Assembly (NCBI GenBank): GCA_020723345.1 | Contig: DYJA01000038.1 | Location: forward strand, 13,137 to 57,767 | Length of the DNA stretch: 44,631 nucleotides | Origin: Candidatus Aquidulcis sp. | GTDB taxonomy: Bacteria > Chloroflexota > Anaerolineae > UBA4142 | Direction of reading: 5' to 3' | In this document: positions 40,811 to 42,232 of the stretch, piece after piece | How the letters are laid out: the number at the start of each line of letters is the position of its first letter | How positions within the stretch are numbered: the stretch's first letter is position 1 | Program-made: the position numbers and the translations under genes | The notes under the pieces: generated by a model | Databases searched by the model: none | The model's input: the letters and a program-made list of their open reading frames with translations, nothing else | What the model was told of the DNA's origin: nothing

Positions 40811-40891
40811 CAGGCGAGCCAAGTTTCTCGCAGATTCACTTTGTCGAGAATATAGCCGCGATTTCTACGAATGTCAAAACGGAGAACGCGT

Positions 40892-42232
40892 ATGGAAAAA
40901 CACACCAACAATGTGCTCGCTCCCATCGATCTGATCGTCCATTCCGCCAATCAAGTCTTGACGCTTGGCGGCGACGCGCCTAAACGCGGCGCAACGCAGG
41001 GCGATCTCGGAATCCTGCGCGATGGCGCGGTCGCGATCCGCGGCGAGCGGATCGTCGCGGTGGGCGATACGCTCGACTTGCTCGCGCTCGCCGACGCGCA
41101 CACGCGCACGCTTGACGCGCGCGGCAAGATCGTCCTGCCCGGTTTTGTCGACGCGCACACCCACGTCGTCTTCGCCGGAGATCGCGCGAATGAATTCGAA
41201 ATGCGGTTGGGTGTTGCCACGCCCTTAAGGACGTGGCAATACCTCGACATTCAAAAAGCGGGCGGTGGGATTATGAGCACCGTCCGCGCGACGCGCGCGG
41301 CAACGCGCGACGATCTCATCGCGCAATCGCGCGCGCGACTGGACGCGATGCTCGCGCACGGCACGACGACCGCCGAAGTGAAGACCGGCTACGGCTTGGA
41401 AACCGCGACCGAACTCAAGATGCTCGGCGCGATTGCCGCGCTCGCCGCCGAGCACGCGATTGATCTCGTCCCGACTTTTCTCGGCGCGCACGTCGTGCCG
41501 GAGGAATTTACGGGGCGGGAGGAAGAGTATGTGGATTTGGTTGTTGATGAGATGTTGCCCATAATTCAAAATTCAAAATTCAGAATTCGGAACCTACGAA
41601 AGGGAATTTTGAATTCCGAATTTGGAATTTTGAATTGTGACGTCTTTTGCGACGACGGCGCGTTTACGCTCGCGCAGACGCGGCGCATTCTGACGCGCGC
41701 GCAAGAACTTGGTTTCGGCTTGCGCGTCCACGCCGACGAGTTTGCAAATCTGGGCGCGGCGGCGCTGGCGGCGGAACTGGGCGCGGCAAGCGCGGATCAC
41801 TTGATGGTGACGCGGCGCGACGAAATGCAAGCGATGGCGCGGGCAAACGTCGCCGCCGTCCTTTTGCCGGGCACGACCTTTGGGTTAGGCAAGACGAATT
41901 TCGCGGACGGGCGCGCGTTCATCGAGGAAAATGTGCCGGTCGCGCTCGGCAGTGACATCAATCCGGGAACGTGTTGGTGCGAAGCGATGTCGTTCGTCAT
42001 CGCGCTCGCGTGTCGTTACGCAAAACTGACGCCCGCGCAAGCCATCGTCGCGGCGACGCTCAACGGGGCGTACTCGCTCGGCATCGCGGAACACGTCGGT
42101 TCGCTCGCGCCGGGAAAAATCGCGGATGTGCTGATCGCGGATGTGCCGGACTATCGGCATCTCGCGTATCGCTTCGGCGCGAATCCGATCGAGACGGTGA
42201 TCAAGCGAGGTCGCGTCATTTCTTTGATTTGA
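40892..42232 (+). CDS. hutI: Imidazolonepropionase with two palindrome-encoded insertions
   Basis: 446 residues (family about 400-420). It hydrolyses imidazolone-5-propionate to N-formimino-L-glutamate in histidine breakdown. Amidohydrolase blocks: VDAHTHVVFAGDRANEFEMRL, AGGGIMSTVRATR, HGTTTAEVKTGYGLE, FLGAHVVPEEF, FCDDGAFTL, VHADEF, DHLMVT, LLPGTTFGLG and GSDINPGTCWCEAMSF. Two regions are abnormally long: VATPLRTWQ after EFEMRLG, and about 25 Asn/Phe/Ile/Arg-rich residues before NCDVFCDDG. Both coincide with palindromic DNA in frame. ATG 40892 has GGAG eight bases upstream; ATG 40871 is less likely. No other hut genes are nearby. Confidence 0.94.
   Translation: MEKHTNNVLAPIDLIVHSANQVLTLGGDAPKRGATQGDLGILRDGAVAIRGERIVAVGDTLDLLALADAHTRTLDARGKIVLPGFVDAHTHVVFAGDRANEFEMRLGVATPLRTWQYLDIQKAGGGIMSTVRATRAATRDDLIAQSRARLDAMLAHGTTTAEVKTGYGLETATELKMLGAIAALAAEHAIDLVPTFLGAHVVPEEFTGREEEYVDLVVDEMLPIIQNSKFRIRNLRKGILNSEFGILNCDVFCDDGAFTLAQTRRILTRAQELGFGLRVHADEFANLGAAALAAELGAASADHLMVTRRDEMQAMARANVAAVLLPGTTFGLGKTNFADGRAFIEENVPVALGSDINPGTCWCEAMSFVIALACRYAKLTPAQAIVAATLNGAYSLGIAEHVGSLAPGKIADVLIADVPDYRHLAYRFGANPIETVIKRGRVISLI
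41214..41239. repeat. 26-bp palindrome in frame inside hutI (first)
   Basis: TTGCCACG-C-CCTTAAGG-A-CGTGGCAA, self-complementary except for one position pair. It encodes the extra residues between EFEMRLG and YLDIQKAGGGI. Confidence 0.85.
41563..41636. repeat. AATTCAAAATTC palindromic element in frame inside hutI (second)
   Basis: AATTCAAAATTC (41563-41574) pairs with GAATTTTGAATT (41625-41636), with further AATTCGG/CCGAATT pairing inside. Its A+T-rich composition contrasts sharply with the gene. It encodes about residues 224-249. Confidence 0.9.

Follow-up and report, generated by a model that had tools for sequence, protein, structure and literature searches.

A palindromic insert in hutI of a Chloroflexota bacterium belongs to a genome-wide class of polarised heptanucleotide-repeat blocks

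Heptanucleotide repeats have been reported from bacteria for decades, and neither their period of seven nor their spread has a settled explanation. The STRRs of Calothrix are reportedly heptanucleotide repeats, and AACAGTC is a rotation of the Calothrix unit CAACAGT. In many bacteria heptanucleotides outnumber all other long simple repeats, an excess put down to contact with the polymerase (Mrazek 2007, as cited in PMC4679880), and families built on a single unit include TAACTGA in the Beggiatoaceae (PMC4679880) and GGGNATC in Xanthomonas and Nostoc (PMC4692102). Palindromic DNA is represented by the Rickettsia palindromic elements (RPE), which lie in frame in conserved housekeeping genes and are tolerated by the protein (PMC2229807). 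REPINs, or REP doublets, with their RAYT transposase, are inverted pairs of short repeats of defined polarity that occur genome-wide (PMC3116915). In vertebrates, interstitial telomeric sequences are inserted at double-strand breaks, and a head-to-head arrangement is known (PMC7215372, PMC8537989). G2L4, a bacterial reverse transcriptase of the group II intron-like kind, repairs breaks by microhomology-mediated joining (PMC12337344).

The element considered here occupies 41563-41636 of the window, the whole stretch of 44,631 nucleotides that was analysed. Its host gene is hutI, encoding imidazolonepropionase, an intact open reading frame of 453 aa (40871-42232, plus strand) that scores 454.6 bits against the TIGR01224 hutI profile, above the curated cut-off of 298. 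The element reads AATTCAAAATTCAAAATTCAGAATTCGGAA-CCTACGAAAG-GGAATTTTGAATTCCGAATTTGGAATTTTGAATT, an (AATTCAA)n array followed by a short spacer and an inverted array, with the reading frame kept. The 5' arm (41563-41592, plus strand) comprises about four heptamers, AATTCAA, AATTCAA, AATTCAG and AATTCGG. The spacer or junction CCTACGAAAG (41593-41602) is specific to this locus, those of other sites in the host genome being unrelated by eye, and the 3' arm GGAATTTTGAATTCCGAATTTGGAATTTTGAATT (41603-41636, minus strand) consists of inverted heptamers. In each arm one sense of the unit, termed 'U', points inward. A repeat search places the inverted arms at 41560-41588 and 41611-41639 (29 nt, 90% complementary), and the predicted RNA fold of the block reaches -34 kcal/mol, compared with -15.6 +/- 3.0 for shuffles (z -6.1). 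With up to one mismatch, AATTCAAAATTC has six matches in the window, all within this block, where 0.35 would be expected and none of 100 shuffles reaches six.

The arms, the fold and the intact frame bear out the preliminary description of a palindromic, A+T-rich element in frame in hutI. The repeat unit given there needs correction: it is the heptamer AATTCAA with period 7, and a 12-mer (period-12) reading of the repeat is rejected. The exact 7-nt period, with its strand polarity, is the defining property of the element and had been missed. Nor do two insertions of one sort lie in hutI, as had been thought. The palindrome at the first site, TTGCCACGCCCTTAAGGACGTGGCAA (within about 41205-41240), adds only six residues (18 bp), which are missing from 12 of 12 aligned relatives. 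It is not heptameric and is a single copy in the host genome at up to two mismatches, so a shared origin with the heptamer block is rejected.

In the protein, the heptamer insert directly precedes the CDVFC strand, a placement already proposed and now upheld by alignment with solved HutI structures. These have only a short connection where the insert falls, and HutI of B. subtilis (2bb0) has about 15 residues fewer at this position. An AlphaFold2 model of HutI built from 13 sequences is poor (pLDDT 53); it leaves residues 236-253 unstructured between a helix (217-234) and a strand (255-258), and serves as agreement with the alignment only. The encoded peptide is most likely neutral filler.

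Heptanucleotide-repeat blocks form a class that is spread through the whole genome, and the hutI element is a single member of it. A search of the whole genome, proposed in the preliminary description, finds the motif dispersed, AATTCAAAATTC having 98 exact copies in the 6.34 Mb, Anaerolineae-like host genome and its reversed control pattern none. The AATTCAA copies share only heptamers; their spacers and flanks are unrelated on inspection. AATTCAAAATTC is also abundant in some other members of the order (66 copies in G009, 54 in G016 and 43 in G008), and it is near absent elsewhere in the class. Without regard to any one unit, the period spectrum of an unbiased 444.6 kb sample of the host genome contains 26 arrays at period 7 and 16 at period 14. 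All remaining periods have 0-6 arrays each, and a Markov simulation yields 0 at period 7. Period 7 leads or is level in the samples from order relatives, most clearly in G001, G016 and G008, and the two class outgroups sampled have 0 arrays and 1 array. Unit sequences are many per genome, dozens across the host and its order relatives, and no one unit dominates. In many blocks a locus-specific spacer lies between two arms; arrays with a single arm are common too, and arms differ in length. Adjacent units within arrays often differ by one base, with the variants in blocks. The window itself holds further examples, namely period-7 arrays of ACTGTTT (469-500) and ACTGTTA (1497-1528) and a two-armed block CGTGATG... 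/ ...ATCACGC (1964-2020).

The arrays of G016 extend up to about 200 nt (L127 3544-3690; L129 1599-1800), with unit variants again in blocks (TGACTGA and TAACTGA; ACGTGAG and ACGTGAA), and TAACTGA is the very unit reported in the Beggiatoaceae. A minor excess of period-8 arrays accompanies period 7 in the bulk samples L110-L117 and L124-L129 (five arrays in G001, seven in G016).

A heuristic gene model puts 31 of the 53 AATTCAA sites inside coding frames and classes 5 of the 21 arrays of the unbiased sample as coding-like, so that arrays as a whole are over-represented outside coding regions. The genes carrying AATTCAA include those of valyl- and phenylalanyl-tRNA synthetases, chorismate synthase, HisF and diaminopimelate decarboxylase. 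Where coding sites have runs of at least three perfect units, the stop-free sense is used 12 times and the sense with TGA every 21 nt once, a bias that purifying selection predicts.

Nearly every relative in the family has an insert at the same position of HutI, filled by a heptamer array with another unit, and the insert is thus not private to the strain. The loop contains AATTCAA in the host genome, GACCGAA with a near-inverted GTCGTCG array in a congener, GAGATTG/CAATCTC in G009, and ACAAATT with a nested hairpin and TCACTCG in G012; the units are AGGATGA in G006, AAATCGA in G008 and AAAAGTC in G013. Among the f2 genomes, three species have AATTCGA, a fourth has AGATGGC with its inverse, and a fifth has no array. 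The preliminary description had named an assembly error and a linker conserved in relatives as the two findings that would speak against it. The first is very unlikely, since different heptamer arrays occupy this position in independent relatives; as for the second, the site of the linker is conserved and its sequence differs. Loops of HisF, AroC, LysA, ValRS and PheT, whose family assignments were confirmed, repeat the pattern of a fixed loop with a unit that changes between lineages, these five genes having been picked because they carry an array in the host genome, so that the pattern is no estimate for all genes. Short, empty ValRS loops occur in G006, G010 and five f2 genomes, and the array in this loop is therefore probably the derived state; the empty loops are too diverged for the boundaries of the insert to be set.

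Single proteins may hold several heptamer-encoded inserts, as in a HemN-like (L028 1001-2332) and a LeuC-like protein (L037 5017-6390), with inserts such as NSKFENRNS, SEFPISNLQSPI and NSKFEIQNSNLQSPISNL, and several membrane proteins have them likewise. GC-rich, hairpin-like pieces of roughly 25-40 nt (e.g. ACACTTGCACCGCACGCAAGTGCAGGTGT and TGTCCTGGGCGAAGCGAAGGACC) also lie in frame, nested in or beside heptamer arrays, in L063 and L065 (hutI loops), L185 (lysA), L151 (hisF) and L199 (valS). In the sampled DNA these nested pieces had no repeats except for one match of GTCCTGNGCGAAGCGAAGGA in the G008 sample, probably the known hutI copy itself.

A further regularity of the class is one of orientation. 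In each unit family one strand sense, U, reads 5' to 3' inward from both sides, across loci and genomes. In a first pass over same-unit inverted pairs, 52 of 53 sites kept the orientation of their family, and all nine intragenic two-armed AATTCAA sites obey the rule. A stricter, leave-one-out treatment of same-unit pairs gave 55:3 in its favour, three pairs breaking it; the labels derive from a moderate sample of 61 strict same-unit pairs, near-self-complementary families are ambiguous, and sites that recur at orthologous loci from one genome to another are only partly independent. Pairs made of different units, with polarity learned from other sites, fell in the order Ur 16 times and rU 0 times under strict criteria (p=3e-5) and 40:1 under looser ones. 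Counting all pairs within 45 nt gives 64:5. Neighbours of the UU and rr kind make up 16 of 45 strict different-unit pairs. At distances of 150-3000 nt the count is rU 53 to Ur 20, which is no neutral control, every site forming a closed U..r block in itself. Gene orientation is rejected as the cause of the polarity, as the rule also holds where both arms lie within one gene. A universal unit logo is not claimed, the excess being weak (3.30 bits against 3.04 +/- 0.07 for random strands) and confounded by related units, and neither is a fixed array phase at the outer boundary, for which the search pattern itself biased the result.

The class can thus be described, with near certainty, as blocks of 7-nt units, frequently in two arms with a spacer, with U inward, many of them in in-frame loops, and with lineage-specific units that match the pool of repeats in their genome. 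It resembles the described heptanucleotide repeats in its exact 7-nt tandem units, which are widely dispersed, mostly extragenic and in some cases within ORFs, and shares with them the unit TAACTGA in the G016 arrays. It differs in that those reports concern one or a few units per genome, whereas here there are many units, inverted two-armed polarised blocks and recurrent occupation of enzyme loops. A literature search, mostly of papers open without subscription, turned up neither a turnover of units in fixed enzyme loops nor a rule of polarity. As kinds, heptanucleotide repeats are known, and so are palindromes in frame such as the RPEs; conserved loops with changing units, together with the polarity rule, look new.

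An active process, as the preliminary description had suspected, is evidently behind the element. One candidate is local replication slippage with template switching at hairpins, in which a chance 7-nt duplication expands, fold-back copying yields the inverted arm, the unit drifts and the loop tolerates the result, the period of seven being the contact length of the polymerase. The one-base differences between neighbouring units, in blocks, are what slippage would leave behind, and the commonness of heptanucleotides among long simple repeats, with its published ascription to polymerase contact, points the same way. Slippage alone would, however, draw on the sequence of the gene, and the loop units follow the genome-wide pool instead. 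In four genes and seven genomes, 13-mers from the loops match bulk DNA of their own genome above that of other genomes (permutation p=1e-4). Dimers of AATTACC number 61 in the whole genome of G003, 41 in G008, 18 in G010 and 0 in f2, and the three rich genomes are those that use AATTACC in HisF, LysA or AroC loops; AAGACCG is confined to G001 and G002. Polarity, moreover, is fixed for each family across loci and genomes, including pairs of different units that are unable to template each other. As such arrays cannot pair together, hairpin stability, fold-back copying and the movement of whole hairpins all fail to account for them. Slippage with fold-back copying is thus an unlikely origin, if still a serious contender.

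A mobile hairpin of the REPIN, MITE or RPE type, moved by a transposase in trans and with heptamer arms as its terminal inverted repeats, is improbable. The dispersed copies and their inverted arms of defined polarity recall REPINs and REP doublets, and palindromic in-frame DNA inside conserved genes is found here as it is for RPEs (PMC2229807). RPEs, however, are copies of 105-146 bp with a recognisable family sequence, whereas the present blocks share only the heptamer and are non-homologous between genomes at the same site. Beyond the heptamer there is no conserved REP core or spacer, the arms are tandem heptamers and mixed-unit pairs occur; spacers and flanks prove unrelated between copies on inspection, arm lengths are variable and one-armed arrays common. 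A correctly polarised pair of different units cannot be one transposed hairpin, and no target duplication is definable, the empty ValRS loops being too diverged. A selected function of the hairpin or of the peptide linker, in mRNA folding, regulation or protein interaction, is less probable again, and in our judgement quite remote: it would suit the strong predicted RNA hairpin (z -6.1) and the long-term occupancy of the same loop, whereas the loops of relatives often hold a one-armed or mixed array with no hairpin, peptide sequence and length vary with every unit, and some relatives have a short loop. An artefact of assembly or binning can be set aside. The named relatives nearest to the host are indeed metagenome-assembled genomes (Chloroflexi/Anaerolineales), and in G010 hutI is split between two contigs (C254 and C294), with the array site near the end of one of them. 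Arrays with unbroken frames nevertheless occur at identical codons in genomes that stem from different projects, and these independent relatives already refute an artefact.

The reading we prefer, tentatively and at somewhat under an even chance, is the addition of heptamers to 3' ends at breaks, followed by joining. The chromosome would first break, and a putative strand-specific, probably RNA-templated polymerase would extend both of the 3' ends, or one of them, by heptamer units. Joining of the ends would then give (U)n-junction-(rcU)n, much as in head-to-head interstitial telomere repeats. Slippage might later alter copy number and unit sequence, and purifying selection would spare none but the insertions that are free of stops, preserve the frame and lie in loops with room for extra residues. 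U inward from both sides is the outcome expected from two 3' ends growing toward a junction. The likeness to vertebrate interstitial telomeric sequences lies in the tandem short repeats and in the strand that runs 5' to 3' inward from each side; those, however, are eukaryotic, have one unit and a known telomerase, whereas here the units are many and the enzyme is only postulated. We infer this mechanism from the arrays themselves, as no recent gain of a block was seen directly and none was caught between near-identical strains.

Several points count against end addition. More than one addition per end must be assumed, because UU and rr neighbours occur. A search of 20 order members (G000-G019) found no Ku, which makes Ku-dependent joining unlikely and calls for another route, microhomology-mediated repair for example. 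G2L4 offers a possible class of enzyme for the joining; it is not known to add heptamers. A single template RNA would not readily account for so many unit families in one genome.

For practical work, heptamer-filled loops are a warning for annotation, protein modelling and assembly; the arrays may fragment assemblies, as the split of hutI over two contigs in G010 illustrates. The polarity rule is a sharp constraint, open to test, by which end growth can be told apart from slippage, from hairpin selection and from transposition. The recurrently filled loops in HutI, HisF, AroC, LysA, ValRS and PheT amount to a natural experiment in the accommodation of foreign in-frame sequence by enzymes. A more far-reaching proposition, speculative and unlikely as it stands, is that the Chloroflexota studied here possess an activity, either telomerase-like or based on a reverse transcriptase, by which broken 3' chromosome ends receive templated heptamers before they are joined. 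The loops of core enzymes would then be scars of past breaks, written with a set of templates that changes between lineages.
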